A DNA stretch of 64,000 nucleotides, from NCBI GenBank assembly GCA_951799425.1, contig OX637410.1, positions 1,240,001 through 1,304,000 on the forward strand. The letters are read 5' to 3'. The notes beneath the pieces were generated by a model that worked only from the letters and a program-made list of their open reading frames with translations, was not told the origin of the DNA and made no database searches. The position numbers and the translations under genes were made by a program. Shown here one piece after another: positions 15,591 through 48,108 of the stretch; position 1 is the first letter of the stretch, and the number at the start of each line of letters is the position of its first letter. This DNA comes from Ilex aquifolium. Taxonomy: Eukaryota > Streptophyta > Magnoliopsida > Aquifoliales > Aquifoliaceae.

Positions 15591-16914
15591 TATGACTCGA
15601 TTGGGTAAGAATTCTAGCGTCTCATTTGATTTGATTGATGAGTTGTGGTGTTGGGTTTTGCCCTTTGTGTCCCTAGGGGCGTTTTTTCTTTTCCTGGTCT
15701 GAACCAAGCAAACGGGGCCAAGTCCTCCACCACCCGCGGGACCAGGATTCGTAGGAGGACGGTGGCGGGCCCCAGTGGTGGGAGTGGGAGTGGGGAGAGA
15801 TGAAAGAAACAAAAGAATGATGCTTGCACAAAGAGCATTTAGGAGAAGAGTTTGACATGCGAGCATCATTTGGACAAGCCCACCCTCAGGCCAAATGACA
15901 AAGTGGTCCGAGTGATTGAGGGACACGACATTGACATTTGGTTTGAGCCCGTGGGTGGGTACGTCCTTCCTATGTGTAGGGAATTCTATCAATGGTTGAA
16001 GGTGGTGGATGAGGACGTATTTTTGCTTAAGATAAATGTGAGGGGGAAGGTAATGGAGATTACCCCGGGGGTAATTGTGGATGTGTTGAAGTATTCCTCC
16101 TAATACCCCAGTCTACCCACACAACACCCAAGGGAGGAAATCACTCCCGGAGTACGTGCACTTGATGTATGAGGACCCGACACAATTCAAAGGAAAAATC
16201 CAAGTTGGGGAACTCAAACATTCATACGGGGTGATGAATAAGGTGTTGCATTATAACTTGCTACCTCGGGGGGTGGAGAAGACCCTGGGGGAAGAGAAGT
16301 TAGCCATCCTCCATGCCTTCATGACAGGGAAGAAGATGGATATGGCCCTTATGATCTGGGAGTTCATGAAAGAGTACGCCCAGGCTAGCAAGCTGAAGGC
16401 GAATCTCTCGTTTGCCAACCTTGTTACCAAGATATGCCTCCACAACAAGGTCAAAGGCAACCCCACAGATGTGACCTTACCTCCGGAGTTTGGAGCCATT
16501 GGTAAGTCGAGTAGTATGAAGAGGTCGGCGATGAGCAGAGGGGCGACCTAGAGAGACGAGAGGGCAAGGGCACCGAGAGGCAAGCCATCCATTACCGGAC
16601 CATCTACTGTCGGGCAATCCATCACTGCCCCGCCTCGCACAACGCCTTGATGCAATAGAGGGGAGGCTGGATGACCTCAATGGGACCATGTAGCGGCTTG
16701 CACTGATGATGACTAGGATGTTCAAGCAGAGCTTCCCTGGAGAGTCTATCCCGTTGTGCCTCCACCTTATACTATCGGGCCATCCACCTCTGTCCCCATG
16801 GGTTCTACTGCTTTAGAGGTGGAGGAGTCCGATGAGGAGGAGACCAGAGATGAGGAGGGTGATGACTATGAGGAGGGCGATGATGAGGGGTAGGAAGATG
16901 ATGATGAGGAGTAA
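15591..16914 (+). pseudogene. Element B third ORF (plant transposon-protein domain, PF20167-like)
   Basis: The start is taken at the ATG near 15591 (MTRLGKNSS). Readable parts are 15852-16103 (CREFYQWLKVV then LLKINVRGKVMEITPGVIV) and 16156-16551 (VLHYNLLPRGVEKTLGEEK, AFMTGKKMDMALMIWEF, NLVTKICL). The FY motif, the VRG motif and the LP-to-TGK segment resemble the domain named putative plant transposon protein, often found as the extra ORF of Athila/Tat elements. The C-terminus is a strongly acidic tail (EVEESDEEETRDEEGDDYEE) ending near 16912-16914. Frameshifts and stops separate the parts. No signal peptide or transmembrane segment was seen, so an envelope label is not supported. Function unknown. 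Confidence 0.7.
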
Positions 16915-17231: not shown

Positions 17232-18896
17232 TGATGAGCATAGAATATTGCATATCATGTATCTCTTTTGCACCCATTTAGGCTTGCTTTTGTGGTGAAA
17301 TTAGGGGAAATGCTTTTAAACTCACATTTAATGGAGATTCGTGTGATTGTAGGTAAAGAGCAAGCGAGAGCGTGTATTAAGCCTCCCATCAAGTGCTTAA
17401 AGGCAATGGAGAAGAAGGGAAGGCTTAACGGATGGCTCGGAACATCAAGAGACCAAGAAAATTCCAAAACAGGAGAAAAACTATCGGTAAAAGTCAGCAG
17501 AAACCTACCGGTAGGAAAAGTGCACTGGAATTCTTCTACCGCAGTCTCTGCCACAAACCTACCGGTAGAAAATGCTTACTGGAAAAAACCTACCGGTAGG
17601 TTTTTGACATTCTACCGGTAGGTTTTGCCCAGAAATGCCAGAAGCCTACAAACACGACTCCTCCTACTTCGAGGGCCCACCTTTTGTCATCCCAACCATA
17701 CCCTGACGCCTTTGACACACCATTATGGTCTCTTACACCCTAAAGTCTGATTTTGGAAGAGAAAAGCATAAGAGAGGTATGAAAGAGAAGAGGGGTGGTT
17801 AGTGAAGCATGGGAGGTGCATGCTTGACTTGTCCTTACTTGTTGAAGTGTCCAATCTCTTCCCACTCATTGGAACTCAGTTCCCACAGACCAAGGAGGGG
17901 GTATGGACGAATTTGGACAAGTCTTACACCATTATTCAGTTTTTACACAAGCTTTTAGAGAGAGAAGGTCCAAGGAAGAAAATGAAGTTTTAGAGAGAGA
18001 AAGTTAGGTTTTTCTTTCCTTCACCATTTTCATTGTAGTAAGTTTTATTCTACTTGTAATATTCACATCTTACACTTTAATCTCAATTATTTCAAGTTGT
18101 AACCAAGTCTAGCTTAATGTTCATGTATTTCCATTTCTACTTTTGGGTTTTCTTTCCAAGCTTTGTATTTTGGGTATGAAATGAATTGGCTTTTATAGTT
18201 TAACCTCTTCTTGCATCAATACAAGTTTAATGCTTCATTTCACTATCATGTCTCTTTACATTGTGATTGTTCTTGCTTTGATCATGAGTAGCTAGACTTT
18301 TAGTTGGCTAATCCAAGGGGAATTTCCTCTTGGGTATGAGAAACCAACTCTCTTATATTCTTCCTCGTAGTGTAAAGTGTTTGGTTTGACTAGGTTGAGT
18401 GCGGATGTGGTTGTGAGCTCTTGATACACCGTAGACTTGTTATGGGGTATGCTTGTGCCAATACCTCCACATTAGTCTCTCACTTCTTACGAATCAATCA
18501 AACACCGAGACACCATTGGTTGAAGGAATTGAGTTGATTTGGCATTCCCATTGGAATGACTTTCTTCCATTTTTATCAAAACACCACTCACCAAAACACA
18601 ATCCAAAAGATTTCTCATTTTCATTTTTTTACAAATCACCCTTCACAACAATTTGACCTACCTTCCTTGAGGAGACGACATTAGAATACCCATTCCAAGT
18701 CAAACATGACATTGCAAGTCTCTTTTCGCTTGGAGAGCACTTTTGCACACACACACACACACATTTTTGTTCACACACATGATTTTTTCCATTTCTAGCA
18801 TCGAACCCGAGGGGGAGTGACACTCACCTACTCGTATAAGTCATATACACACGAACCGGGATCATGTTTGGAGATTAGAGAGAAATGAAACAAGCA
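17232..18896 (+). mobile_element. Element B 3' LTR (1665 bp)
   Basis: Starts TGATGAGCATAG and ends ACAAGCA, then TSD AATAC. It aligns with the 5' LTR, with point changes and a small deletion near 18560, so the insertion is not recent. The palindrome module (17479-17630) is better preserved than in the 5' LTR. The 117-codon ORF at 17268-17621 simply reads through this module. Confidence 0.93.
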
Positions 18897-21742: not shown

Positions 21743-23313
21743 TGATTAACCCTAAAAATGCAGAATTGAATTAGAATTTAGGGTTAATAGTGTGTGTTAA
21801 TTGAATCAAAATGATTTAGTTAGATAGTATTATGGTAAATGTTTAATTTGTGTATTTTGTAGGGTTTCACATGTAATTATCAAAACTTGGAAGGACAAAA
21901 GTGCGAAAGGCGGACAAAGGAGGGAGGAAAGGATAAAATCAACAAAGTCCTCATCATCCAGATGGTAAAGCACCATCCCAACGCCAACAAGAGTCAACAA
22001 GTTAGCAAAAGAGGCTCCACCCACAAAATCAGAGACTTAGCACCGTCTGGACGGTGGTGGTGGCGTCCGGACGATGGCTAAACCGCCTTACCTCTCCTCT
22101 CCTCCTATTGGTCTAAAAATGCGACGAAAGAATCTGATTGGCTACCCTGGGTGTCTGCCGCCCCTGACCCCCTTCTTGGTGCCTATAACTAGCCAAGTTT
22201 AGTCATTTTTGGAGGAGACTTCGCCAGAGAAGAAAGCCAGAGCCAAAGAAGAAGAAACCCTGCCCTAAACACTCCTAAACCAGCATTTCTTTTCTTCTAC
22301 ATTTCTTATTTATCCTTTTTACTTGGAGGGTTGAACCTCTCTCACTTTTTTGCCCTAGTCGGTAATAAGAGTGAGGGTTTTTAAACTATTCCTCAAGGAA
22401 GGATTTCTTGCATTTTGTTTTTGTATTTGTGTTACGTTGTAATGAGATTATCTCACCCTTCTTGCTCGTCTATAACAATGAAGTGTTAGTAGTCCGTTTA
22501 TACTCTTTAGTGAAGGGTGAAGACATGTGTAATATTGTTTATGTTATGGAAATGTCGATGTTTTACCTACGCGTTAATGTTTATATCTCCCTTAATTGAT
22601 GGATGGTTATTATTATACCTTTTCGTTGTCGTATTACTATATGCGCATGGTTACGAATACCGAGCTAAACTTATTGCTATATACCAGTTCATCTTTATGT
22701 TATTACATACTACGTGCATGATACAATGATGCACGTAGTTGAATTTTATGTTATAGTCGGGAGATTGGTTATAGGCAGGTTAAATCTCGCCATAGCTAAT
22801 GCTTTTGATTTAATGCATAAACCAGAACTCCATCTTCATTGCATCATCAACCTGCCGATTGAATAGCTAAAGTAAACCTTTTGAATGGTTCACCTTCGGG
22901 TTTACTAGGGTTATTTGATTGTTGTATGGTACATAGACCTTCCGGATAATGTAATCAGTTGTTGTGATATGATTCAGTTTATACATCAAACCTACCGGGT
23001 AACTTTTTAGTAATATGGAAGTTAATTAGTGTAAGGTGACATTTTCTTAGTTAAGTAATAAAACGCATGTTGGATCCCCAGACTAAAGAGTAGCTTTTCA
23101 ATTACTGTAATCAAAAGCTAAGTTTAAGTATTTATTTGATCAGTTCTAAGTTTACTCCACAAGCTATTGTAAAGCACACTACGTACATGACAGTCTTACC
23201 CTTTTTTATTTTAAATTCCAACGGATAGCTCCCTATGGGTTCGACCTTGGACTTAACTGAGTAATACTATAAGTTGACCACTTATATTTAGGTGTATGAT
23301 TTAAATCAGGTCA
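21743..23313 (+). mobile_element. Element F 5' LTR (1571 bp)
   Basis: Starts TGATTAACCC, ends CAGGTCA, six bases before the PBS. Palindromes CACCGTCTGGACGGTG (22041-22056) and CGTCCGGACG (22064-22073) precede a TATA-like TATAACT at 22184; the 3' LTR keeps TATAAATA at 44654-44661. The ACTTGGAGGGTTGAACCTCTC and CTTGCTCGTCTATA blocks match the 3' LTR. Confidence 0.88.
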
Positions 23314-28621: not shown

Positions 28622-28854
28622 AACAATCCATAACCGTCTTGGCGATTGGTAGACGTTAAAGAGCCAGATAGTGAGTCTTTTACAAATCTTAAAAAAAAAA
28701 TTCAAAATTTTTCGAAAAGTGGATGAAAAACTCTATTGGTATAGTCTTGGAGTGTTACGCACATTCCCAATGTATGTGCACCATTTGATAATGTTAAAAG
28801 CAAGAGGGGTTAGAAAGAAAGAGTTAATTGAAAATCAACCAAAACTCTTGTGCA
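28622..28854 (+). other. Element F spacer, left of solo LTR I
   Basis: AT-rich spacer after integrase; no supported gene. It continues at 31288 after solo LTR I. Confidence 0.6.
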
Positions 28855-29384
28855 GAAAATGTAACACCCCGCATTTTCTTTTATATTTGTATATAGATAT
28901 ATAGTAAATAATTGTTGTAAAAATGTTGATATGTATAATGATGTAAGAATGAACTATATAGATTGTAATAGTAGGAGAAATGCTAGAGATGCATATTGAT
29001 TGGGAAGTTTGAGTTTCAAAGACGTTTAAACTTGGAAAGGGTGATTAGATGAATTTCTAAATATTTTTAGGTCAAAATAAGGTGTCCATTGAATCCGGAA
29101 GGTCGAACAACCTTGGGAGAAGTAATATGAGGTGTATTGGAAGTTAGGAAGTATTTTGGAGTAAAGACACATTTAGAGAGAGTTGGGTAAAAATGGATCT
29201 TGGACACTGCTTAGTATTTTGGCCATAACTTTTTATCCTTATTTCCAATTGATCTGAAAATTTTACAGTAGATAGTAGACATCTAGGGCTACAAAAGTGT
29301 ATCTCATGAAAAATTTTCAATTCAACCTCTAAATGGGTCAAAACTTCCCTGGAAGTCGAAGTAGCCGAAGTGTACCGGAACACA

Positions 29385-29454
29385 GTACCGGTACCGTACT
29401 GTACCGGTACGCCCGAACCAGTAGCTAAACCGTACCGGTACAGCGTACCGGTAT
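29385..29454. repeat. Palindrome array GTACCGGTAC in solo LTR I
   Basis: Copies at 29385-29394, 29401-29410, 29432-29441 and 29445-29454 (last base changed). Located about 40 bp before a TTTTAAAA box. The same position in G carries the same palindrome. Confidence 0.85.
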
Positions 29455-30240
29455 GCCCGAAGTTTGGCACAGTAAAAGTCAGGATTTTGGTGTTTTAAAA
29501 TACCCTTTTAAGCCTCATTTGACCCATTCTTCCATCCCACTCTCACCCCAAACATCTTAGAGCCCTAAGAGAAGAGAAAATGAGAGAAAAACACAAAGAT
29601 CTTGAGAGAGTTACCCCTTATAGAGATCAAAACCGAAATTCCTCCAGAACACCATTCTTCTACTCTCTTCTTCTACACTTTCACTACACCCTTACCCACA
29701 CCTCTTGGAATCCTAGAGAGAGTCTTAGAAAAGAATAAAGAAGGAGAAAACACAAGATCAAAAGGGAAAAACAAAGGGTTTAAGAGTGATTCAAGATCAA
29801 ACTCTAGATTTTCAAGAACATCAAGGTTGGGGTTTTCTCTCACTCACTTACATTGAGGCTAGGGTATTTATATATGTATACTTTGGCTATCAATGGTATA
29901 TATATGCTATGGAATCATCCTCTCTTAGGCTTTTTGGTAAAGATTACATGTTTTGAACAAAATTATGGTTTAATACCCATGAAATCTCTTCTCTAGTTTT
30001 AAAACTCTCATTTTTGGAGAGTGATGTATTTCCTTCTTAAATGCTTTCTTTATTATGGATTTTCGAAACCTTAGTGTTTTGTGTTGGGTAGAAAAATGAT
30101 GTTATTGTGATCTCATGTATTTTTCTTTGTTGGTTGTGGAATTGTTACATGATATATTTTGGGGATTTCGAATAGATGTTTGTAAATTGAGATAAATGTT
30201 GGAATTGTATGCTTGGTTGGGTTGTGCTGATGCACATGAG

Positions 30241-30620
30241 TGAGAGGTTCCTTGTAAGGATGCTCACCCCTTCTCAAGAGGTTCCCGGTAAGGATGCTTG
30301 AGAAATAAGTCCGTTATAGTGAGAGATTCCTTGTAAGGATGCTCACCCCTTCTCAAGAGGTTCCCGGTAAGGATGCTTGAGAAATAAGTCTGTTATAGTG
30401 AGAGGTTCCTTGTAAGGATGCTCACCCCTTCTCAAGAGGTTCCCGGTAAGGATGCTTGAAAAATAAGTCCGTTATAGTGAGAGGTTCCTTGTAAGGATGC
30501 TCACCCCTACTCAAGAGGTTCCCGGTAAGGATGCTTGGGAAATAATGTAGTGATTGGTGAGAGGTTCCATGTAAGGATGTTCATCCATTCTCAAGAGGTT
30601 CCCGGTAAGGATGCTTGAGA
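30241..30620. repeat. 79-bp tandem repeat, about 4.8 copies, inside solo LTR I
   Basis: Copies start at 30241, 30320, 30399, 30478 and 30558. Each unit is itself a dimer: GAGAGGTTCCTTGTAAGGAT and CAAGAGGTTCCCGGTAAGGA halves of about 40 bp. Copies are nearly identical, suggesting recent expansion. The LTRs of G and H lack it. Confidence 0.93.
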
Positions 30621-31287
30621 ATCAAATGAGACCTAAAGGGGGGTGGAGGTTACCACAAAGTATGCCACCTACCGAAAGAATTGTTGGGAATTGTTTATGG
30701 CAATTAATGGTGATTATTTGTATGTGGTGCTCGTCTATTCATTTAAGTAATGTTTTTACATAAACTTGAGATCCTTTTTAAATGTCGCTGCTTTAATTCA
30801 AATTATGTATCTATGTTATGTTAAAAATGAGACCGACAGTTTTAAATGCTTTTCTAAACCTTGTATGGGTTTGAGAGAATTTTTCTACAGAGCTTCGTGC
30901 TCACCCCCTACCGCTAACATTTTTCAGATTACCCGCTTGAGGAGGACGTAAGGGTCGAGGAGCCCGCTACTTGGGAGACTCCACTTGACGGGAGTGTGGA
31001 TCCCGAGGTGGACGCATAGAGCGACCTCCTTTCCTTTTGTACTAGACTAGGGCATTCTTTTGGAACATCGTGTAGTCTAGTTTCTTTTGTTTATTCCGCT
31101 ATGCTACTTTAATTAATTTTTGAGATGTAATAGCCATAATTTGGGCTTATTCTTTTGGATCACTTTGTAAATATTTGTGGATGACAAATGGAGTCTCGTT
31201 TCTTAAGGAATTATATTAGTACTCTCATGATATGAATGTTTTATAATGTAATGTCGTCCAGGGTGTGTTTTGGGGCGTTACAGAAAA

Positions 31288-31745
31288 AGTTCATATGCTA
31301 AGCGTCAGCGAGCAAGACGTCTCAGTGGGTGTGAAAGATGTGGTCGATTCATGCACATGAGGGAATTTAATCAGTGTTCTCAACCAATCTCTCATCTTAT
31401 ACTAGTCCAATGCTTACAAGATATGTGCGAAATGAGATTGGTCGGTTCACTAATCTATTGGAATAGGAAAAGTGGAATAAAAATCAAGCCTTTTCTATAA
31501 ATAGTTAGGAAGTTAGGGTATTTTGGTGTTATTTTATGTGTTTTTGGTGTGTTTAATTTAAATTTTAGAAAGTTGCATTTTTTATGTTTAAGTTGATACT
31601 TTAATGATGATTTGTGTTAATTAGGCAATTAATTGAGGAATTTTGAATTAATATGAAGTTTTATGACTGCAGGAGGTATAACTGAAATCAGGAAGCTGAA
31701 CTGTTGAACTCTCAAACTGCTTGCCTGCCAAAAACAGGCAACCAA
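31288..31745 (+). other. Element F spacer, right of solo LTR I
   Basis: Continues the spacer between integrase and the third ORF; AT-rich, no supported gene. It leads into the palindrome module at 31746. Confidence 0.6.
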
Positions 31746-31812
31746 CACCGTTTGGACGATGGTGGTGGCGTCTGGATGGTGGTGGTGTCTGGACGGTAGT
31801 GCTCCTATAAAA
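31746..31812 (+). promoter_or_regulatory. Internal copy of the LTR palindrome module with TATA box, upstream of the third ORF (element F)
   Basis: CACCGTTTGGACGATGGTGG, GTCTGGATGG and GTCTGGACGGT (31746-31797) repeat the order seen in the F 5' LTR (22041-22073). TATAAAA follows at 31806-31812, and the third-ORF methionine is at 32005. This is a promoter-like arrangement inside the element; activity is inferred. Confidence 0.68.
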
Positions 31813-32004
31813 GCAAAATGTTGATGAAGCAGACCATCTTTTTCCCTCGCAGCAGTTTTTCGAAAAAACAGCAACCCTCGTTGCCTTTTCTCCTCACATC
31901 TGCCATACCCATCAGTTTTTCTTCGATTCCACTCCAATTAAACACTTACCCATTGCATTATACATACTTTTACCGATTGAAATCTTGTGAAACCCACTTT
32001 CATC

Positions 32005-33141
32005 ATGAGTCCAAGAAAAAATGGAATATCTCACAAGGATGGCAAGTCTTCAAGCTGTCTAAGGCAAGGAGTTTCTCCACCGCCCCCAACGATGCCACAA
32101 GAACCCGAGCAGCCCCAGGTTCAAAATCAATTTGAAAATGCTATGTTTGAGAATATTGAGCAACAAATTTAGTTTGATAGGCATTTCTTATTCAAAACTA
32201 TCATTGTTGAAAGGCCTGTTATCTATGAGGATTTGAGCACATTGGGGTTAGATAGAATTTAGCGGCACAGGGTTGGTTTGATTATATGAAAAATGTGAGT
32301 ACTACATATGAATGTTTAGTGCAGGAATTTTACGGTAACGCTGAGGTTACTGGGGTTAGAAACTTATCCGCATATGTTAGGGGGTTAAATTTCAAGTTAT
32401 AGTGTCTACTAATACTGATCACTTAAAACCTATTAGGAGACACCCTGATGCCCAATACTTGTTGAATCTATTACCTCGCATGTCTGATGTTGGGATTGAG
32501 TTGACTGGCAATCCGGATTATGTCTGGGGTAGGCTCAATGAATACATTAAGCAGGGTGATTTAACTGACAAATATCGAATTTTGAACCTGATCACTATAA
32601 ATAATTTGTTACCCCAATCCTAGAAAAATCAAGTCTACACTTAGAAAGCATATTTTCTGTACTCTTTCGGAATGAGACACATATTGACCTGGTGACTCTG
32701 ATTATAGATCAAATGATTATGACAGTGGAAAATAAGAAACCCTCACTCCCTTGTTGTGTTAGTGTCTAATTTATGTAGATAGAAGGGGTGATATTAGATC
32801 CATCATGGCCTACGGTGGAGCATCTGGAACCATTAGACAAGACCTCATTGAAAAAGAGCCATGGAATCCAGGCAAAAGCACAGCAAGAAATACCACCCGA
32901 GCCATCAGTAGACCCATTCCAAGAAGGGGTAGATTTCCAAGCCCCAGAAGAGTAGCAGCAAGAACAGGAGGAGCAGCCCTATATTCTGGTGGATGATCAG
33001 ACTGATAGGTAGATTTTGTTGGGACTAGATACAAGGATGACCCAATTTCATTGGAGAATGACCCAGTATGAGGAGAACCAGAGAGAGATACTGAAGCTAC
33101 TTGGGAGGAGATACAATGCTGGCCCATCATTGTCAGCTTAG
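32005..33141 (+). pseudogene. Element F third ORF (PF20167-like)
   Basis: Starts MSPRKNGISHKDGKSS at 32005, the same MSPRK start as in J (59093, minus). A Pro/Gln-rich stretch is followed by a TAG at 32170-32172. Beyond it are FDRHFLFKTIIVERPVIYED, then in another frame VQEFYGN and YVRGLNF, which match the FY and VRG positions of the B third ORF. The C-terminal part reads MTQFHWRMTQYEENQREILK and ends at TAG 33139-33141. Function unknown; broken by several stops and shifts. Confidence 0.68.
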
Positions 33142-33498
33142 TCAACTGGAGTCTCTTGCATATTCCTACTCTCTCTCTACCTTTCTCAAACTCTTTATTT
33201 ACCTTCCATTTTATGCACAAGTTTTTTTACTACTTTGGATATTTTTTGGAATTTAGTTTTATGCTTTGGATGTTAGTTTAATTTTAGTTAATATAGTTGG
33301 TTTGTGTTTATTTCAAATAATTTGGATGGTACTATTTGCTATGTTAAGGTGATTAGTTCATATGATTCAAAATAGGATTACATTGTCATCCCGTTAATTT
33401 GCGAGTATAACCCTAACCGAATCACAAGGGATTTTCATACTCTATTTGTGCATTGTTCTTATATTTTTATGGAAAACTTACTGATTCGCACTATTTCA
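33142..33498 (+). other. Element F 3' non-coding region, left of LTR N
   Basis: AT-rich; no gene or clear motif. It is cut at 33498/33499 by the inverted F-type LTR N. Confidence 0.55.
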
Positions 33499-35271
33499 TG
33501 ATCTGATTTATATTATACACCCAAGTATAAGTGGTCGAATTGTAGTTTTCTCGGTTTTAAGTCCAAGTATCGATCCCACGAAGAGTTTTTAATAATTAGG
33601 AAATAAAATAAAAACAGTGTAGTTGTTATATAAGTAGTGTGACATGAGATAGCTTGTGATGTGAGCTTAGATTGATAACTAGTCTAATTAAGTTTTTGTT
33701 TGCAGATAGATTGTTTAAAGATGATGACAATAATATAAAAAGTATCCTTCAGTTTAAGGATCTCATATGCTTTATATTGGTCAAGTACTGGAAATGACAC
33801 CTTACATCAATTAACTTCCATGTTATTGGCAAGTTAACCGGTAGGTCTGATGTATATAAACCATCACACAGCAACTTCTTAGGTTAGCTGGTGGTATCCA
33901 TGACAATTGATTAATCCAAGCAAACCAGAAGGACAAGCCATTCATGAGGAATACTTGAATTATTCAATTGATCTCTTAATAGTAAGTGCGTACATAATAA
34001 ACCATAACACAACAACTTCTTAGGCTAGCTGGTGGTATTAAGTCATAACACAACAACTTCTTAGGTTAGCTGGTTATAGATGTGTCAATTGACGAATTCG
34101 AGTGAACCAGAAGGACAAGTCATTCATGAGAAATACTTGAATTACTCAATAGGTCATCTGTGATATATATATACCAGTTAAACATCATCAGCGTTCCGGT
34201 GGATGACAAGCCATACCAATAGGAATACCGTAGATATTCGACTGGCAATATAGTTATATATAGTAGTTAAACAACCATAATAACCCAGAAGGACTAGTCA
34301 TTCATGAGGATCATTTAGGTTTTGTACCATGCATCAGTAGAACATCCTCAGCGTTCCGGTGGAGGACAAGCCATACCGATAGGAACACCGTAGTTATTTA
34401 ACCGGCAGGTTGATGATGCACTGATGACATAATTTCAGGCACAACACGTAAATTACGTACATCACTGTATCATGCATGAAGCATATAATACATATATAAA
34501 TAAATATATGAATAAAACATCAGCATTTTCAGAGGTTAACCAATATTATACATATGTTTATCTCTCACTGAAGGATATAAGTAACTACCCACGCCCCATT
34601 GCTACAGACAAGCAAGGAGTGCGGGCAGTTTCCATTACAACTGAAATTAAAATACAAACTCTAAAAATTCTTTCACAAGGAACAACTGAAACACAACCAC
34701 TTTTATTATCAGTCAAGACAAAAAAGTGGCGGCAGTTCAACTATCTGAATAGAAAGATACAACAGAAATGTAGAAATACAGAGTATCGGTTGGAGTATAT
34801 CACGGACCGGATTGGATTGCAATTTCTATTTCCCTCTTTCTTTTTCTCTTTTGGAATTCTCTCAAGAGCTCTTGGGTGGCCGATCTTGTTCAAATGAAGG
34901 AGGGCACCCCTATTTATAAGCAAGAAGAAACAGGAGATGGAAGGATAAAGCTCAGCCGCCAAGGGCCACCGTCCGGACGCCCCTCCACCGTCCAGACGGT
35001 GGAGCCTTGCTGGATCATCAACTTGTTGATGTGCTGACTCTTGTTTTGTTTATATTACACTTTGCTCCTTTGTTGTTTCAAGCTTTGACATATCGTTCCT
35101 CGTATTCTCCGGTAATTCTGCATTAAACCCTGAAATTTTGAACATAAAGTATTTAAAACTTTAATTTATGCACAAACCCTAATTGACTCTAATTGATAGT
35201 TTTTAGTTATTTTATCATATCAATTTGACTTATTTAACTATTCTAATTTACATACTAATTAGGGTTAATCA
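33499..35271 (-). mobile_element. Solo LTR N, F-type, inverted (1773 bp)
   Basis: On the minus strand it begins TGATTAACCCTA (at 35271) and ends CAGATCA (33499), like the F LTRs. It has TATAAATA (minus) at 34911-34918 and the palindromes CCGTCCGGACG (34969-34979) and CCACCGTCCAGACGGTGG (34985-35002). Its left half holds diverged duplicated blocks with CAACTTCTTAGG (about 33871-34075). No clean TSD was found (TTTCA versus CTTAC). The 141-codon ORF at 34472-34897 is on the antisense strand and has no family match. Confidence 0.82.
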
Positions 35272-36279: not shown

Positions 36280-36635
36280 TGATTAACCCTAGAAATTGCG
36301 GTATTGAATTAGGGTTTAGGGTTAATTTTGTGCGTTAATTGAATTAAAGTGTTTAATTTGAATTATATTATGGCTAATGTTTGAATAATATGTTTTGTAG
36401 GGTTTCATTTGTGAGTACAGAGAATTAGAGGGCTAAAGTGCAAAGAAGGAGAAGATAGGAGAAAAGACCAAAAGAGAAAAATCAACAAGGTACCATTCAG
36501 ATGGTACAAACCACCATTTCAATAGTGGCCAAAGTCAAAAAGTCAACAAAGGAGGCTGCAAGGCAAAAATCCAGAGAACCGGCACCGTCTAGATGGCCTA
36601 AACCGACTTAAGAGACGTTCTTCCTCCATTAGTCC
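36280..36635 (+). mobile_element. Element F 3' LTR, segment 1
   Basis: Aligns with the first 350 bp of the F 5' LTR. It has only a weak trace of the palindromes (CACCGTCTAGATGG near 36584). Element G interrupts it after AGTCC (36631-36635). Confidence 0.83.
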
Positions 36636-39151
36636 TGTAACACCCCGCATTTTCTTTTAAATATGTATATAGATATATAGTAAATAATTGTTGTAAAAAT
36701 GTGGATATGTGTAGTGACGGTAGGAATAAAAGCAAAAACTAGAGATACAAATTGATTGGGAAGTTAAGTTTCGAAGGTGTGTAAACTTGAGAAGAGTGAT
36801 TATGGAAGTTTCTAAATATTGCTAGGTCAAAATAAGTTCTCCATTGAATCCGGAAGGTCGAAAAACATTGGGAGAGGTAATGTGGAGTGTATTGGAAGCT
36901 ATGAAGTATTCCGGAGTGAAAACACACTTAGAGAAAATTTGGGTAAAAATGAGTTGGGACACCTTCTAGTATTTTGGTCATAACTTTTTATCCTTATATC
37001 CAATTGATCTGAAATTTGGACAGTAGATAGTAGAAATCTAGGGCTACAAAAGTGTATCTCATGACAATTTTTCAATTCGACCTCTAAATGGGTCAAAACT
37101 GCCCTAGAAGTCGGAGCAAAAATTTGTCAAACCGTACCGATACGCCCGACTCCAGTAGCTTTGGAGTACCGGTACTGAGTACCGGTACGATTTTCTCTGA
37201 CATTCGCCGAACAGTTAAAAATTCAGGATTTTTGGGTTTAAAACACCACCTCAAGCCCTCATTTGCCCCATTCTTCACTCCACTCTCATCCCAAACATCT
37301 TAGAGCCCTAAGAGAAAAGAAAAGGAGAGAAAAACACAAAGATCTTGAGAGAGTTATCCCTTATAGAGATCAAAACCGAAATTCCTCAAGAACACCATTC
37401 TTCTACTCTCTTCTTCTACACTTTCACTACACCCTTACCCACACCTCTTGGAATCCTAGAGAGAGTCTTAGAAAAGAATAAAGAAGGAGAAAACACAAGA
37501 TCAAAAGGGAAAAACAAAGGATTTAAGAGTGATTCAAGATCAAACCCTAGATTTCAAGAACACCAAGGTAGGGGATTTCTTCTCTTTCTCTTACATTGAT
37601 GTTAGGGCTTATGTATATATGTATGTTTTGCTCTAAATGTTATACATATGATATGAAATCATCATCTCTTAGTCTTTTGGGCAAAGATTACATGTTTTTA
37701 ACAAAATTAGAGTTGAATACCCATGAAATCTCTTTTTGTGTTTTAAAACTCTAGTTTTTGGAGAGTGAAGGATTTTCTTCTTAAATTCTTCCTTTATTAT
37801 TGATTTTGAAACCATAGTGTTTTATGTTGCGTAATAAAATGATGTTGTGGTGATCTCTTGTATTTTTGTAATTGTTTATTGAAATGGTCATGTGATAAAT
37901 TTGGGGGTTTTTAAGATATACTTGTAAATTGTGAAATTGGGTTTGGTATTGTATCTCTTATGAGTGTGGGATGACCATGGGTGGCCTTTGACGAGATATC
38001 GTAGAGTGGGTAGACGTGTTGCTTGCTCCGTGTGGGTTGTCATTTTTCCTACCACTCGTAGTGGGGTTAGTGCTTTGGTAAGACTAAACCGCTATTGCTC
38101 ACGGGTGCCGTGTCAGAGGGTTAGTATACTAATACCTGGGTTGGATACGTCACTGCCATTGGTATGGCATACGCCCTTCCTAAATGATGGATATCTTTGA
38201 GAAGATTTGTGTGCGTGTGTGTGGGCTAGATATTACTCAATGTGTCGATTCATGGGGTTTGCCTTACATCATGGTGGAGATACATGTTTATAATGTTGAT
38301 ACGAATGAAATGGTTAGTATTTGTTCATTCTACTAGATACGTTTTCTACAAGAGTTTTGGGAAGTATGGGATTCCGCAAGAACTTGTGAGAAACGGTTTA
38401 TGGTGGAATGTATTATTAATTGTGTAATTGGTTCCATTTATTCATTAAATTACTGCTGTTACCTAAACTTGAGATCTATTGAAATGTCCTTGCTTTCTTT
38501 CAAAATTGATATATGATATTTGCGAAATGAGACCGGCCATTTTATATGCTTTTATAAACCATGTTCGATATTGGGAGGAATGTTGCTACAGAGCTTAGTG
38601 CTCACCCCTTACAGTTAAACATTTTCAGATTTGGTGCTAGAGGAGAACCTCGGAGTTGACGAGCAGGGGTATTGGGAGGCCCCATCCGAGGGAAATCGAG
38701 ATTCCGAGGTGGACATATAGAGATATAGCTTCTTTTGCACTAGACTAGGGAATTTAATTTGAGATCATGTATAGTCTAGTATTTTGTTTGTTCCGCTGCT
38801 AAGTTTGAGTGCAATTCTTTTGGAATGTAATTGTCATAGATTGGCCTATTCTTTTGGGATGATATTGTGGATATTATTTATGGTGAATAGAATCTTATTT
38901 TGTGATGTGAAAATGGACTCGGTGTGGTCAATATGTAGTCATACTTGGACCCGGTGTGGTCAATATAGTATAATTGTACAGGTTGTATTTTGGGTAGAGC
39001 TCCCCGAACAAAGGAGACTCTGCCCAAATTTTGTTAAATTAAGGAATGGTTTTTATGAAGTCTTATTTATGGATGATTTTTATTAGTTACTCTCATGGTA
39101 TAAATGGTTTTAGAATGTAATGCCGTCCAGGGTGGTATTTAGGGCGTTACA
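36636..39151 (+). mobile_element. Element G 5' LTR (2516 bp)
   Basis: TGTAACACCCCGC to GGGCGTTACA. GTACCGGTAC at 37166-37175 and 37179-37188, then a TTTAAAACACC box near 37218. Short ORFs at 37345-37599, 37964-38200 and 38242-38427 recur in the 3' LTR because the LTRs are near copies. Confidence 0.93.
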
Positions 39152-39155
39152 AAGT

Positions 39156-39167
39156 TGGTATCAGAGC
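39156..39167 (+). other. Element G primer-binding site (tRNA-Met initiator type)
   Basis: TGGTATCAGAGC, the perfect complement expected for the 3' end of initiator tRNA-Met, 4 bases after the 5' LTR. Confidence 0.9.
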
Positions 39168-42032
39168 TTAGGCTTTAGGTCCTACATGGGAGCTGTAAGT
39201 TATGGATTACCACTAGAGCATTAGGACTAAGTTGAATAAAAGGGTTTGAGTTAGATTTCACACCCGTCTTGTGTTATAGACTAAAGTGATACTTAGGATG
39301 TCTTGCACATCGAGGAATTAAATTGTGAATTGATGGCAGACATGGTTGTATTAGACATGAATGGGTACTCTAGTTTGTATCATGTGGTTTAGACTAGTCT
39401 AGGAAACGGATGATAATTTGGCTTTTGGTTGGTAAATGAGATTAGGCATGGATCTTGATAGTGAGTCATATTATTTATATTGGAGATGGGTAGGAGATAG
39501 GATGTGTGACAAAGACACCCAAACTTGAGTTGGACAAATATAAAGGAACCAAACAATCCGGCAGACTACCTCGCACTAATTCGATCATAACTCTTCATTG
39601 GAAAGTCCAAATTGTGCACCGTTATTTTTGTTAGAACCCTAACTCGTATATCTTTCCAACCATATAGGTCACGCATGCTCAAAATACCCGAGTCAAATCA
39701 GTTTATTTTTCGAAGTTGGTCAAAAATCTGCACTGTGGTGTTCTTTGGACAGTAAAGTGTTGTACTTTCTTCTTAGATTCTGAAGGACCTATCCTTAAGT
39801 GAACTTCCACATTATTTAGGCTTTGATTGAGAGACACCCCATATTGATTGAAGTGCTTTTAATGGATAACAATATAAAAGATGATTATGATTTGGTGCTT
39901 GTCAACTTTAAGTATTCTCTTCCACTAATAATATTGCTCATATTTTAGAAGTCAAGGGATATGATAAACCAATTGGGAGGTGTGGAGATAAGGTTAACCT
40001 AGAGGTTCTCTAAGATGAATTTAGTACCTAATGATAAGGGTATGGAAAGTTACATGTGTTATTTAAAAGGCATAGAAATTAAGGAATGAATGTAGTTTTG
40101 GTCCTATAATAGAAACCCTGGGAGGGTAATGGTGAGTGCGATGTATGAGGTTGAATAATTCTTAAAGATGACTAATTGATGGAATATGGAAAAGTTACCT
40201 CGAATGAGAGCCTATTTTGGATTAACGATAGAAATTGTGATTATGGTACTTAAATGGATCGGAGTTTGTTTTCAGAACCGCAAACTTGAGGTTACCCATG
40301 TTGTTTTGAAATATTATAGAGAGTTGATTAAATTTACTTTGGAAGTATTGATGGTTTAGAAGGGTCATACCTAGGATACTCCTTGAGGACGTTATACTTA
40401 GGTAATCTTATTTTGTTGTGGACTTAGTTCACTATAGTTAGACTTTCTAAAATGTTAACAATCAAGAATCTATTGGGTGAGTGTGTAGTTAATAGTTGAC
40501 TTGTATTTACAAATATGGATTTGAAATTGAGGTCAAGTTATGGAAACGAATTTATAGACATGGAAAAAGGGAAATCTAAGAAGCATGACTAAGTTGTAGT
40601 AATTACCTTTGACCCTTGATATTGTAGGGTTAAAGATTATAGATGTTAAAAGCTTGAGGTTGTATATAGTAGACAATTATGAAAAGAGGATGATATCCCA
40701 AATTTGAGGTGAACCTCTATTGTTCTAGGAAACCTTTTAATGTCATTGGATTTGTGTTGGGGGAATAGGACGTTCTTCTTTTTGCCTCTTTTAGTACCTT
40801 GTTAAGATCGGAATGATTAGTTATACTTGAGGAATGTTAGTATGAGTATAGAAGACTTGAACTTATGGTTGATGGTGATAATGGTAAAGAAGTAAATTGA
40901 AGAATCAAGCATGATACCTATGAAGATTGCTTTGACATGGGATAAATCATTGAGAGTCTTATTTTAGTTTAGATTATTTTAGTTTTGGGATCCTTGACAG
41001 TCTATCCTCACATTTTGATATGATACAAGAAGTATATTGTAATGAATGGTATCAGAAGGATTAGAAAGTATAGGTATCATTAAAAGAGTTGTGAGGTGAA
41101 TGAAAGCCACTAAGAATTGATTAAATGGTTATTAGTTCTAGCTCAAGATTGTAGATCGAGAGCAAATATCTTGGAGATATAATTTGATCCTGAGCTTAAG
41201 TATTATAGCTGGTTAATTACCCAAAAATTCTCTTTTGAATGGATTTGATGGATCGTTAGTGTACACATTTTGGAAGCTATAATTGGAAAACAAGGGCGGT
41301 TAGGTTTCACTTGTATACTTTGGTGGAATCTAAGATACTCTCTCAGAACTTTCAAATCTATGCGAAGTTCTTATCTTGTAGCATATTTTGACTTGTGAAT
41401 CAGTGGATTATAATTTATATTAGAGTGCGCAGCGAGCTTTTGGATTAATGACTATAATAGTGACGGTAAGGAGTATTATGAGAAAGTACAAATTGATGTG
41501 AAAACTAAGAGTTGATCTTAGAACATTGACTTGTGTGGAGTGTGTAGTTATGAATTGAAATGATGGCAGATTTCAAGATTTTGAATCCCTCTTGGGTTGT
41601 GAGAGACGAAATCTTGAAGAACGTTGTATCTATTTTCAGGAATTGCGGTAAATCTTACCGTGATGCCATTAACAAATTTGGTGTTACACCATGATGTTAG
41701 TATAGGAAAGATGAGTAATCCTAATGGTGGAATTGCATTTGAGTTATTTTAATATGCTTATGAAGAAGATACATGTAAGAAGCAAATATGAGGTTGATTG
41801 AAATGATTGGTGAAATTCAAAAGAGAATTGATATTTGATGAGTAGACAATTAAGTATTATGACTTAGTAGTTATGCATGATGAGAAATTAGTTGGAACAA
41901 CCGTAGACAATTATTAAGAATAGAGGTGATAAATGAATTCTAGTGAAGGAATGTATTTTGATTCTAGTCTCTCAAATTATTGAGAATTTGAGAGACTAAC
42001 TCGACGATTAAGTTTCGAGTACGAAACTTTCT
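39168..42032 (+). other. Element G non-coding interior
   Basis: No gag, protease, RT, RNase H or integrase motif is visible on either strand. A segment at about 39557-39764 matches solo LTR H (46868-47061) in LTR sense. A strong stem-loop lies at 41965-41998. Confidence 0.82.
41965..41998 (+). other. 14-bp perfect stem-loop just upstream of the element G PPT
   Basis: TAGTCTCTCAAATT (41965-41978) pairs with AATTTGAGAGACTA (41985-41998) around the loop ATTGAG. It ends 35 bp before the PPT. A role in RNA folding, 3' processing or plus-strand priming is possible but unproved. Confidence 0.75.
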
Positions 42033-42047
42033 TTAAGGGGGGTGGAT
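42033..42047 (+). other. Element G polypurine tract
   Basis: TTAAGGGGGGTGGAT directly before the 3' LTR. Confidence 0.85.
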
Positions 42048-44581
42048 TGTAACACCCCGCATTTTATTTTAAATATGTATATAGATATATAGTAAATAAT
42101 TGTTGTAAAAATGTGGATATGTGTAGTGACGGTAGGAATAAAAGCAAAAACTAGAGATACAAATTGATTAGGAAGTTAAGTTTCGAAGGTGTGTAAACTT
42201 GAGAGGAGTGATTATGGAAGTTTCTAAATATTGTTAGGTCAAAATAAGTTCTCCATTGAATCCGGAAGGTCGAAAAACATTGGGAGAGGTAATATGGAGT
42301 GTATTGGAAGCTAGGAAGTATTCCGGAGTGAAAATACACTTAGAGAAAATTTGGGTAAAAAGGAGTTGGGACACCTTCTAGTATTTTGGTAATAACTTTT
42401 TATCCTTATATCCAATTGATCTGAAATTTGGACAATAGATAGTAGACATCTAGGGCTACAAAAGTGTATCTCATGAAAATTTTTCAATTCGACCTCTAAA
42501 TGGGTCAAAACTGCCCTGAAAGTCGGAACAAAAATCTGTCAAACCGTACCGGTACGTCCAACTCCAGTAGCTTTGGAGTACCGGTACGGTACCGTACCGG
42601 TACGGTACCGTACCGGTACGATTTTCTCTGACACTCGCCGAACAGTTAAAAAGTCAGGATTTTTGGGTTTAAAACACCACCTCAAGCCCTCATTTGCCCC
42701 ATTCTTCACTCCACTCTCATCCCAAACATCTTAGAACCCTAAGAGCAGAGAAAAGGAGAGAAAAACACAAAGATCTTGAGAGAGTTACCCCTTATAGAGA
42801 TCAAAACCGAAATTCCTCAAGAACACCATTCTTCTACTCTCTTATTCTACACTTTCACTACACCCTTACCCACACCTCTTGAAATCCTAGAGAGAGTCTT
42901 AGAAAAGAATAAAGAAGGAGAAAACACAAGATCAAAAGGGAAAAACAAAAGATTTAAGAGTGATTCAAGATCAAACCCTAGATTTCAATAACACCAAGGT
43001 AGGGGATTTCTTCCCTTTCTCTTACATTGATGTTAGGGCTTATGTATATATGTATGTTTTGCTCTAAATGTTATACATATGATATAAAATCATCATCTCT
43101 TAGTCTTTTGGGCAAAGATTACATGTTTTTAACAAAATTAGAGTTGAATACCCATGAAATCTTTTTTTGTGTTTCAAAACCCTAGTTTTTGGAGAGTGAT
43201 AGATTTTCTTCTTAAATTCTTCCTTTATTATTGATTTTGAAACCATAGTGCTTTGTGTTGAGTAATAAAATGATGTTGTGGTGATCTCTTGTATTTTTGT
43301 AATTGTTTATTGAAATGGTCATGTGATAAATTTGGGGGTTTTTAAGATATACTTGTAAATTGTGAAATTGGGTTTGGTATTATATCTCTTATGAGTGTGG
43401 GATGACCATGGGTGGCCTTTGATGAGATATCGTAGAGTGGGTAGATGTGTTGCTTGCTCCGTGTGGGTTGTCATTTTTCCTACCACTCGTAGTGGGGTTA
43501 GTGCTTTGGTAAGACTAAACCGCTATTGCTCACGGGTGCCGTGTCAGAGGGTTAGTATACTAATACTTGGGTTGGATACGTCACTGCCATTGGTATGGCA
43601 TACGCCCTTCCTAAATGATGGATATCTTTGAGAAGATTTGTGTGCGTGTGTGTGGGCTAGATATTACTCAATGTGTCGATTCATGGGGTTTGCCTTACAT
43701 CATGGTGGAGATACATGTTTATAATGTTGATACGAATGAAATGGTTAGTATTTGTTCATTCTACTAGATACGGTTTCTACAAGAGTTTTGGGAAGTATGG
43801 GATTCCGCAAGAACTTGTGAGAAACAATTTATGGTGCAATGTATCATTAATTGTGTAATTGGTTGCATTTATTCATTAAATTACTGATGTTACCTAAACT
43901 TGAGATCTATTGAAATGTCCTTGTTTTCTTTCAAAATTGATATATGATATTTGCGAAATGAGACCGGCCATTTTATATGCTTTTATAAACCTTGTTCGAG
44001 ATTGGGAGGAATGTTGCTACAGAGCTTAGTGCTCACCCCCTACAGTTAAACATTTTCAGATTTGGTGCTAGAGGAGAACCTCGGAGTTGACGAGCAGGGG
44101 TATTGGGAGGCCCCATCCGAGGGAAATCGAGATTCTGAGGTGGACATATAGAGATATAGCTTCTTTTGCACTAGACTAGGGAATTTAATTTGACATCATG
44201 TATAGTCTAGTATTTTGTTTGTTCCGCTGCTAAGTTTGAGTGCAATTCTTTTGGAATGTAATTGTCATAGCTTGGCCTATTCTTTTGGGATGATATGTGG
44301 ATATTATTTATGGTGAATAGAATCTTATTTTGTGATGTGAAAATGGACTCGGTGTGGTCAATATGTAGTCATACTTAGACCCGGTGTGGTCAATATAGTA
44401 TGATTGTACAGGTTGTGTTTTGGGTAGAGCTCCCCGAACAAAGGAGACTCTGCCCAAATTTTGTTAAATTAAGGAATGGTTTTTATGAAGTCTTATTTAT
44501 GGATGATTTTTATTAGTTGCTCTCATGGTATAAATGATTTTAGAATGTAATGCCGTCCAGGGTGGTATTTGGGGCGTTACA
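42048..44581 (+). mobile_element. Element G 3' LTR (2534 bp)
   Basis: Matches the 5' LTR closely. The palindrome region at 42545-42620 is longer than in the 5' LTR, with extra GTACCGGTACG units (42577-42620). Ends GGGGCGTTACA, followed by TSD AGTCC. Confidence 0.93.
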
Positions 44582-44586
44582 AGTCC

Positions 44587-44900
44587 ATTCATGCAACAAG
44601 AGGGCTCCTATAGGCCAGCTTATTTCAACCGAATTTACCCCTCCCCTTAGGCCTATAAATAGGCTTGTTTTGGAGCCATTTGAAGCCAAGTTCTCTTCCA
44701 TTTCATTGGAAGACCAAGAAGAGAAAAGATATGAGGGAAAAGAGAGAAATACCCTACACCCCTAACCCAATATTTCTTCTACATTTCTTGTATTCCTTTC
44801 TACTTGGAGGGTTGAACCTCTCACTTTTTCGCCCTAGTTCAGTAATAAGTGTGGGAGTGTTTCAACTATTCCTTGGGGAAAGACTTGCTGTGTTTATTTT
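44587..44900 (+). mobile_element. Element F 3' LTR, segment 2
   Basis: Continues the F LTR after G: TATAAATA at 44654-44661, the CTACATTTCTT and CTTGGAGGGTTGAACCTCTC blocks. Interrupted by H after ATTTT (44896-44900). Confidence 0.85.
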
Positions 44901-47350
44901 TGTAACGCCCCAAAAACCCCCTTGGGTGACTTACATTCTAAAAACCATTCACCTCATGAGAGCACTAAATAAATCTATAAAATAAGGAAGTTTCATTCAT
45001 CAACCATCGATATTTTAACAAAATTCGGGCAGAGTCTCCTTTGTACGGGGAGCTCTACCCAAAACACAACCTGTACAATTTAAGCTACAATTGACCACAC
45101 CGGGTCCCCATATGCCTCATAAGATAAAATTTCATTCAACATATATCATATCCACACTATCATCCCAAAAGAATAGGTCAAACAATGGCATTTACATTCC
45201 CAAAAGAATTACACTTAAACTTAGCAGCGGAATACAAAATAAACTAGGTTTCACTGTATTCAAGAGAGTATTCTAGTCTAGTGCAAAAGAAAAGGGGTCG
45301 CTCTATGCGTCTACCTCGGGATCCAAACTCCCGTCAATTGGAATCTCCCACTGAGCAGGCTCCTCGTCTCCTAACTCCTCCTCGAGTACATAATCTGAAA
45401 GGTGGGGAAGTAAGGGGGGTGAGCACAAGGCTCTGTAGGAGGATCCTTCCAAACCCATTCAAGGTTTTGAAATCAAGTAAAACAGGTAGGTCACATTTCG
45501 CACATACATATAAATGAATTTTGAAATAAAATAAGGACATTTTAAAGGAGATCTCAAGTTTGTACAATAATAAAGAATTGAAAGAGAATAAAACCACGTT
45601 TAATTGACAAACAATTTCCAACATAATCCACTCCACCATACACCATTTCCACAAGTTATCGCGGCATCCCATACTACCCGAAACTCTTGAAGAAATAATA
45701 TTTGGTACAATGAACAATAATTTCTATTTGGTACCACTCAAGTAGGTTGTCGCTTCTCATGAATCTACCCGACGATTCTACCTCGTTCACCCATTTCCAC
45801 TAACAATCACAGACCAATTTAGGAAGGGCGTGTACCGTCTCATACGGCATTGACGAGATCCTCCCAAGGTGTCTAGTATACTAACCCTTTTCCCCGGTAT
45901 CCGTGAACAATAGTGGTCACTGTCACCACAATGATCCACTACGAGCATTAGGCAACCGTCTCACCCCCCATTGGGATAAACTAACCTCTAACGCTCTACG
46001 GCAGTTTTCGAAGGTAATCCAAGTCCTTCACAACACCATACACAAGAGTGACATACCAACAATATACTCAACCTCATATACAAGCAAATTCCATGATTTT
46101 CCCCAATTTTCACAAGCAAGATACATAATAGTACAATTTAAGAAAACATACCCATTTCGCAAATCATGTTACAAGAGACAAGTTTAAAGGAAATAAGCAT
46201 GAGATCATCAATACAATCATTTTACTACCCAACACAAAGTTCTAGAATTTTCAAAATCAAGATGATGTGAAGATATAGAGAAAAATCCATATTTCCCCAA
46301 AAAACTAGAGTTTGATGGATTTCCAACCATCATTTTGTTCAAATCATGTGAATGTTTGTAAACATACCAAGGAACAAGGAACCCATAACAAATACATACT
46401 ATTAAGAGCCAAATTCTACGTGTATAATAACTCTAACATCAATGGACAACAATGGAAGAAAACCCTACCTCAATGTTCTTGAAAACCTAGGTTTAGTGTG
46501 AAGAAGATGAAGATTTGATCTTGAATCACCCTTGAATCTCTTGTTTTTTTCCTTCCTTTCTTCCTCTCTAATGCTCTCTAGGGTTTCAAGAGGTGTGGGG
46601 GTGTGAGGGGAGTGAAGGAAATGAGGGCAAATGGGCTGAATCTGTGTTTTAAACACAGCAGTCCGCGAGTTTACTGTTCATGGCTGAATTTTGGGTTTTC
46701 TCCAAAATTACGGTTTTGCCACTAAAAATCTCCAATTTGATCCGTATGACTACCCTAAGGTTTTTCGACGTTCCGGATTCATTTTTAATGTTATTTTAAC
46801 CTAAAAATATTTATTTTTATGATTTATTTCAAAACTAAAATAAATTTACACTCGAAACATTAAAATTACTATCCAAAGAATACCAATGCAGATTTTTGGT
46901 CAACTTCGGAGAATAAACTGATTTGACTCAGGTATTTCTAGTATGTGTGACCTATATGGTTGGAAAGATATACGAGTTAGGGTTCTAACAAAAATAACGG
47001 TGCGCAATTTGGACTTTCCAACAAAGAGTTATGATCAAATTGGTGAAAGGTAGTCTGCCGGACTGTTTCGACATCGCTTCGTTATCTGGGTATAACTCTC
47101 TCATCCGAGCTCCGATTGAGGTGATTAAAGATGACATGGAACGCTAAGAAAGAGTTCTAAAACTTCCATGTTTTGAGTTTTGAGAGATATTGATTGTATC
47201 AAGGTCGAAATTGGGTTTGAAGTTGCAGCTAGTGCACTGTTCACTTGCACTGTTCATGTGCAATGTTTATTTTATTTTTACGTCATTACATATATAAGAA
47301 TCGATAAATAAGTACATTACTATATTAATATAAGCATGTGGGGTTTTACA
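44901..47350 (-). mobile_element. Solo LTR H, related to G and I, minus orientation (2450 bp)
   Basis: On the minus strand it starts TGTAAAACCCC (47350) and ends GGGGCGTTACA (44901), with exact TSD ATTTT (44896-44900 and 47351-47355). Its downstream half aligns with the LTRs of G and I; its upstream part differs. It has no ACCGGT array but has the 17-bp palindrome CTGTGTTTTAAACACAG at 46642-46658, where G and I have their TTTAAAA box. Confidence 0.93.
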
Positions 47351-47355
47351 ATTTT

Positions 47356-48108
47356 GTATTTCTATTGCCATAGGATTCATTTACACTTCTTGCTCGTCTA
47401 TAGCAATGAGGAGTGAGTAGTCTTTCTTATACTCTTTATTGAAGGGTGAAGACATGTGTAATATTTTTTAAGTAATGAAAATGCCGAAGTTTTATTTATA
47501 CTTTAATGTTTATACCTCCCTTAAATGATGGATAGTTCTCAATTATGTTTTGTACTATGTATTATTATAACTTAGGTTATGCTCATGGTTATAAGTACCG
47601 AGCTAGACTTATTGTTATTTACCATATCATGTATACTCTACGATGTACTTCATGCATGATATAATGATGCACGTAGTTGGGATTTATGTAACAGTCCGGA
47701 GATTGGTTATAGACGGGTTAAGTCTTTCCATAGTCATTTTTTTCGATTCAATGCATAAACCGGAACTCCGTCTTCATTAATTCATAGACCTTCCAATTTA
47801 ACAGTCATAGTAAACCTTTTGAAAGTTTCACCTTTGGTTTTACTAAGGTTATTTGGTTGTTGTATGGTGCATAGACCTTTCGGCTAACTTAACCGTTGCT
47901 GTGATTTAATTCAATATATACATCAGACCTACCGGTTAACTTTTTGTTGACATCGGAGTTAATTGATGTAAGGTGGCATTTTCACAGTCAAGCACCCTTT
48001 CTATTTTAAAGTTCTAACAGATAGCTCATTGTGGATTCGACCTCAAACTTCACTGATAATATTACAACTTGACCACTTATACTTTGGTGTACGATTAAGA
48101 TCAAGTCA
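47356..48108 (+). mobile_element. Element F 3' LTR, segment 3
   Basis: Aligns with F 5' LTR 22430-23313 (CTTGCTCGTCTATA, GGTGAAGACATGTGTAATAT, GACCACTTATA blocks) and ends CAAGTCA at 48108. Confidence 0.85.

Follow-up and report, generated by a model that had tools for sequence, protein, structure and literature searches.

The 64-kb window analysed here (the whole stretch of DNA) holds many nested LTR retrotransposons. One of them, element F, raises the question of why the interval 31746-31812, which sits between F pol and the third open reading frame (ORF3), carries the same palindromes as the F LTR and ends in a TATA box. The interval probably forms the core of an additional promoter, internal to the element, from which the accessory ORF3 would be expressed; its array is shared with the LTR and would be recognized by one trans-acting factor. 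The sequence reads CACCGTTTGGACGATGGTGGTGGC-GTCTGGATGG-TGGTGGT-GTCTGGACGGT, followed by TATAAAA, and the features of element F were located as follows.

21743-23313, plus strand: F 5' LTR; it matches the pieces of the broken 3' LTR at 36280-36596, 44773-44904 and 47383-48108
22041-22075, plus strand: F LTR palindromic module, two GTCYGGAC units 20 bp apart
31283-33482, plus strand: F internal segment, with the putative ORF3 promoter region and the decayed ORF3
31746-31797, plus strand: F internal palindromic module, three GTCYGGAY units, matching the F LTR module
31806-31812, plus strand: TATA box, TATAAAA in 10 of 11 aligned F copies
31813-32004, plus strand: probable 5' untranslated leader of an ORF3 transcript, judged from the identity profile
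32005-32172, plus strand: F ORF3 start (MSPRKNG...), broken downstream
36583-36596, plus strand: first unit of the F LTR module in the interrupted 3' LTR

First, the internal module was compared with the LTR. One 35-base module, CACC-GTCCGGAC-GGTGGTGGTGGC-GTCCGGAC-GGT, was present both at 31746-31780 (internal) and at 22041-22075 (LTR). The best local alignment of the F internal region with the F 5' LTR covered 37 bp with a score of 49, while the maximum of 100 dinucleotide shuffles was 28, which confirmed the claim of an earlier note on this DNA that the repeats at 31746 match the F LTR module. An ungapped scan of both strands of the window with the 35-base module (at most 10 mismatches) gave two matches, at 22041 (2 mismatches) and at 31746 (5 mismatches), and no match was obtained in 40 order-2 Markov sequences of 64 kb each. 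Chance as the origin of the match was excluded by these shuffle and Markov controls. A third copy of the module, on the minus strand near 34969-35009 within a reverse LTR-like repeat, was missed by the ungapped scan because of a one-base gap. The 12-base sites (at most 3 mismatches) occurred twice in the 5' LTR, three times at 31741-31810 and not at all in four other F segments (8.7 kb). In the genome, the 28-base core GTCCGGACGGTGGTGGTGGCGTCCGGAC occurred 300 times with at most one mismatch, and the backwards pattern did not occur. The start of the F 5' LTR was set at 21743, where matching begins in three other copies (L014, L018 and L024); a TATA-like CTATAACTAG (22183) follows its module at a distance of about 110 bp, and a TATA-like CTATAAATAG was present at the equivalent place in all three other F-type LTR copies.

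The stretch downstream of the internal module was then analyzed in the window copy and in ten other F copies, selected as the highest-ranking of the remaining matches to window 31700-32000, which gave 43 matches in total. TATAAAA follows the module at 31806 and the ORF3 ATG lies 199 bp on, at 32005, in agreement with the order of TATAAAA and MSPRK start that had been described before. The one aligned copy that departs from TATAAAA, L023, reads TATTAAA. Mean pairwise identity, calculated in 20-base windows for ten F copies (L027 was excluded for its insert), was 0.66-0.91 from 31793 to 31992, 0.48-0.66 at 31453-31632, and 0.64-0.77 at 31393-31452 and 31633-31692. The module's own windows showed identities of 0.70, 0.57 and 0.18 and did not stand out in the profile, because the extra unit of the window copy opens gaps. 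The conservation profile thus favours the stretch from the TATA box onward, not the module. The window copy has three units in the internal array and each of the ten other copies has at most two. By ungapped scan, the internal module was found within 8 of 35 mismatches in eight of these ten copies; much of it is lost in L019, and L021 has a one-base deletion in it. C>T and G>A changes dominate the decay: they make up 19 of the 23 mismatches counted in six short modules, the two modules of the L023/L024 copy being left out of the count. A second TATA-like CTATAAATAG is found at 31495-31504, where conservation is poor and the internal module lies 250 bp farther downstream, and L027 has a 3.3-kb insertion (L027:5067-8360) by the module, between the equivalents of 31685 and 31769.

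A module of this kind might also be a functionless fragment left by an LTR, or a separate LTR insertion, and nested LTR pieces are indeed abundant throughout the window; among them, a reverse LTR-like repeat at 33499-35271 holds a similar module. However, pol-side sequence was found directly upstream of the segment that matches 31283-31285 onward in all ten other copies, and therefore the internal region belongs to the F element and not to a stray LTR. The pol-side sequence ends at the equivalent of 28844-28862 in eight of these copies and at 28623 and 28816 in the other two; in the window copy, a nested repeat at 28860-31282, which contains a tandem array of a 79-bp unit (30239-30624), splits the pol side from the internal segment. 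Moreover, only 37 bp match the F LTR, and the LTR ends are absent. A separate LTR insertion at 31746-31812, which the earlier note had named as an outcome that would speak against its reading, was ruled out by the shared position in ten copies. The same note had also named family members whose internal region bears no similarity to the LTR; none was found among the ten copies, in which the internal region is present by construction because they were chosen by matching 31700-32000, so that F members without the module would have escaped sampling. We consider a leftover LTR fragment highly improbable, also because of the separately matched arrays and the unrelated H spacers reported below for three other families.

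Next, element B of the same window was examined, and its features were as follows.

5726-7458, plus strand: B 5' LTR, with a CTACCGGTAG array at 5974-6138
15209-15295, plus strand: B internal CTACCGGTAG array before ORF3
15592-16914, plus strand: B ORF3, broken, ends approximate; its pieces match PF20167 (Transposase_32)
17234-18896, plus strand: B 3' LTR, with a CTACCGGTAG array at 17481-17621

The proposal that F and B differ in their palindromes and that each repeats its own LTR type internally was borne out by the CTACCGGTAG arrays in the two B LTRs and at 15209-15295. The stretch 15226-15308 is colinear with LTR positions 17552-17634 over 83 bp (score 91, shuffle maximum 35). Sites with at most one mismatch numbered five and four in the two LTRs and three in the pre-ORF3 stretch, and none was found in the other 9.2 kb of B. 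The B pair pattern occurred 80 times in the genome, including window positions 15264 and 17590, and its backwards control gave no occurrence. By eye, B showed no clear TATA box downstream of its internal array, nor in its 5' LTR. One B ORF3 piece matched PF20167 with an E value of 5e-12, and a second piece (7e-4) was under the cut-off.

A search of the genome with PF20167, in which 150 of 6661 candidates were scored, led to two more families, H and G. The one H element read as sequence (L059) has an intact ORF3 of 358 aa (PF20167 E 2e-31). Upstream of this ORF3, eight CGTCCGGACG sites occupy 1099-1351; six of them are exact and the other two each differ at one base. CTATAAATAG follows at position 1363 and the ORF3 ATG at position 1466. 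The 3' LTR of the element has four exact CGTCCGGACG sites followed by TTATAAATA. The sites form three pairs in the internal array and two in the LTR, with a spacing of 23 bp in every pair; no such sites were found in 200 replicates of a Markov control. The 23-bp pair, which is its own reverse complement, was present at 1941 places in the genome, and the backwards control was present at none. The spacers of H were compared in eight LTR and eight internal pairs (12 of the 16 from places selected for holding the exact pair, 4 from L059, which was chosen on other grounds). The middle nine bases were 0.23 identical between LTR and internal spacers (shuffled 0.22) and the whole spacer 0.37, so in H the sites and their spacing were kept while the rest diverged.

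The distribution of the H pair was also analyzed. Among 50 listed places of the 1941, split at gaps of more than 8 kb, 16 clusters were obtained. Three clusters were full-length, with 10.4-10.6 kb between the LTR pairs; in these, 3.3-3.5 kb separate an internal pair from the 3' LTR pair. Two further clusters held internal and LTR pairs, one was ambiguous and five were single. The other five were short (4.1-4.5 kb; two with H-like spacers) and had LTR pairs and no internal pair, as judged by pair positions only. Among the 150 scored rows, 17 contained a 377-aa open frame, and 13 of these had an identical score, which suggests young copies.

In family G, ORF3 matched PF20167 with an E value of 4e-48. 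Thirty PF20167 loci were examined, and the 11 that lack the ORF3-start motif were left out of the count. In 16 of the 19 loci with a recognised ORF3 start, CGCCTAGGCG (at most 2 mismatches) was present upstream of ORF3, and downstream of ORF3 none was found in the 19 loci. The distance between adjacent sites was 61-62 bp at 10 of these 16 loci; it was 61 bp in one LTR, that of L061, which was called an LTR from its position and start and is the G LTR read as sequence. In a first pass over the same 30 loci, almost no CCGG-centred palindromes were seen. Another locus, L060, with an intact 384-aa PF20167 ORF, showed no sharing between LTR and internal sequence in the 6 kb read, and its membership in an LTR element is not clear; tandem repeats of about 217 bp lie upstream of this ORF (L060:1-1056), and other 384-aa frames are present among the scored rows.

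LTR-type repeats thus lie upstream of the gene after pol in all four families (F, B, H and G), and we compared the four internal regions with the four LTRs. Both members came from one element in F, B and H, and from different copies in G. The scores of the internal regions with their own LTR were 49 (F), 91 (B), 49 (H) and 35 (G), with shuffle maxima of 28, 35, 29 and 29, while the off-diagonal pairings scored 17-27. Of the 24 possible assignments, the one that gives each internal region its own LTR ranked first. The H internal region scored 27 with the F LTR, just above the shuffle maximum of 26, in keeping with the GTCCGGAC core that is common to these families. This family-specific match in four families supports a shared regulator of LTR and internal region. 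In B and F, spacer letters are part of the match, so copying may have occurred there. The data bear in two ways on the idea, put forward in the earlier note, of co-evolution between internal promoter and LTR: the matching between four families agrees with it, but within F the proposed check, whether the two sets of palindromes change together, gave no signal. In the four F copies with both modules, mean mismatches were 8.0 within a copy and 7.8 between copies, where a deletion in L023 inflates the distances of this copy.

The palindromes could also be CG-rich marks of the host side, bound by a host factor or targeted for silencing, common to many retrotransposons and without a link to ORF3. 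In accordance with this, a CTACCGGTAG array was found at 4846-5044, within what is probably the 5' LTR of another, minus-strand Ty3/gypsy element (RT 2031-2468, gag 3938-4330); its sites are alternately 22 and 30 bp apart and some are mismatched. Arrays of GTACCGGTAC were likewise found in LTR-like repeats of the window at 649-754, 29372-29445 and 42546-42610. However, marks of this kind leave unexplained why the internal copy precedes ORF3 and why its type and spacing agree with those of its own LTR, and the five short H-pair clusters, from pair positions alone, have LTR pairs without an internal pair. On balance, we regard host-side marks as an improbable explanation. The LTR-like repeats with GTACCGGTAC arrays include those of an element at 36636-44582; its repeats are 2.5 kb long, and between them there is no ORF of at least 80 aa and no GTACCGGTAC array.

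A role of the sites in RNA or replication (hairpins, packaging or extra priming), with ORF3 expressed from a spliced LTR transcript, was also considered. A splice acceptor has been predicted for the env-like ORF of Athila (Bousios et al., 2010, PMC2829016), so that ORF3 could in principle be expressed without a promoter of its own. By eye, T-rich stretches with TTGTAG or CTGCAG at their end were seen before the arrays in some sequences. In contrast, the palindromic repeats of the LTR lie upstream of its TATA box in F, H and G (B has the repeats without a clear TATA box in its 5' LTR), so genomic RNA would carry the array only near its 3' end, and in F and H the internal array is directly followed by a TATA box. 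These observations make an RNA-level role unlikely.

We therefore return to an internal promoter as the preferred reading. Such a promoter would combine a TATA box with a short array of palindromic sites, each probably bound by a dimer, and the accessory third gene (PF20167, 'env-like') would be transcribed from it into an mRNA of its own. Since the LTR carries the same array before its own TATA box, one trans-acting factor, which may come from the host or may be the ORF3 protein of the element itself, could switch on both genomic RNA and the accessory gene, and each family would keep its own palindrome type and spacing at the two places. The functional internal promoter claimed in the earlier note accordingly gains from the TATA boxes in F and H, and its activity is predicted from sequence. 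The arrangement suggests that the 'env-like' gene of Athila-like Ty3/gypsy elements, a gene of unsettled function, has a promoter of its own. The matched sites offer a directly testable target, namely whatever binds CGTCCGGACG pairs 23 bp apart.

The class of the elements was examined using protein models. A PF20167/PF03078-type accessory ORF between pol and the 3' LTR was found in B, H and G, and an F-related piece (L017) matched PF20167 weakly and under the cut-off (E 0.012). The place of ORF3 before the 3' LTR is given by paired LTRs in F and B and by recurring LTR pairs elsewhere in H, and is presumed in G. The F RT piece matched RVT_1, with no RVT_2 match at E ≤ 1; B showed RNase H and a weak RVT_1, with no RVT_2 match at E ≤ 0.01. 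RVT_2 is the Pfam model of the copia-type reverse transcriptase, and membership in the Sireviruses (Ty1/copia) was rejected for F and B, whose RT pieces lack it. 'Athila-like' is used here as a provisional name based on PF20167 and position; RVT_1, found in F and B only, does not set the lineage. After the 5' LTR, TTTGGCACTGTTGACGGGGA (F) and TTTTTGGCACTGTTGTCGGGGA (B) resemble what we take to be a primer binding site of the tRNA-Asp type.

Four known systems resemble this arrangement in part. In Sireviruses, as described in PMC2829016, family-specific palindromes, nearly all with a CGG-CCG signature, form clusters at two places, namely ahead of the LTR TATA box and in the linker that precedes ENV; the linker of the four elements lacking ENV has none, and an internal promoter was suggested. 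The likeness lies in palindromes both before the LTR TATA box and before the gene after pol. However, Sireviruses are Ty1/copia elements, while F and B have an RVT_1-type RT together with a PF20167-type ORF3, and here the spacing as well as the sequence is matched between LTR and internal array. The motif was called Sirevirus-specific in the same paper, and the arrangement is now seen in the other superfamily. In Arabidopsis, Athila6A has an annotated promoter for the ENV ORF after pol, and transcription start sites are reported to have been defined (Panda et al., 2016, PMC4977677), but LTR-like palindromes at this promoter are not mentioned in the excerpt available. Maize Grande likewise has an accessory gene between pol and the 3' LTR with its own promoter, gene23, which encodes a nuclear protein (Gomez-Orte et al., 2013, as cited in PMC7264820 and PMC11963269); that gene is antisense, and LTR-matched sites are not mentioned in the citing passages. 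In foamy viruses, a single transactivator, BTas, binds at two promoters, that of the LTR and an internal one (excerpt of PMC4929722); these are animal retroviruses, with which no sequence relation is claimed, and the transactivator proposed here is hypothetical. No description of LTR-matched palindromes before ORF3 in Athila-like elements was found in searches of the open-licence PMC literature. A Sirevirus-like arrangement therefore appears to be new for Athila-like Ty3/gypsy elements, which show it here in four versions, each specific to one family.

Finally, we considered whether ORF3 itself might be the regulator. Tentatively, and with rather low confidence, it may be a nuclear, dimeric, sequence-specific DNA-binding activator or anti-silencer of the palindromes in its own family's LTR and its own promoter, which would give a foamy-virus-like positive feedback with protein and palindrome co-diverging between families. 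If so, the product of the 'env-like' gene would be a regulator rather than an envelope. Binding of the sites by a host factor has at least the same probability, because CTACCGGTAG and GTACCGGTAC arrays also lie in other elements. In sunflower, an Athila sense ORF with PF20167 was predicted to be nuclear, and the antisense ORF of the same element had a transmembrane helix (excerpt of PMC11728184). In the H and G ORF3 proteins, the highest Kyte-Doolittle value of any 19-residue stretch was 1.03 and 1.46, respectively, both below 1.6, the N-termini are basic, with KRAR or KRQR, and the C-terminal parts look like coiled coil by eye. A search of H ORF3 against the PDB gave no match at E ≤ 1, and the predicted fold of a 153-aa stop-free piece of B ORF3 was uninformative (mean pLDDT 39). 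The F ORF3 piece was nearest to H (49% over 43 aa), matched B over 24 aa (E 0.004) and showed no match to G. The nearness of F and H in ORF3, together with their common GTCCGGAC core, fits a protein that would bind its own palindromes, but two families prove little. Pointing away from a nuclear protein, an apparently hydrophobic run, LWCWVLPFVSLGAFFLFLV, closes the first open piece of B ORF3; this run may stem from the broken frame.
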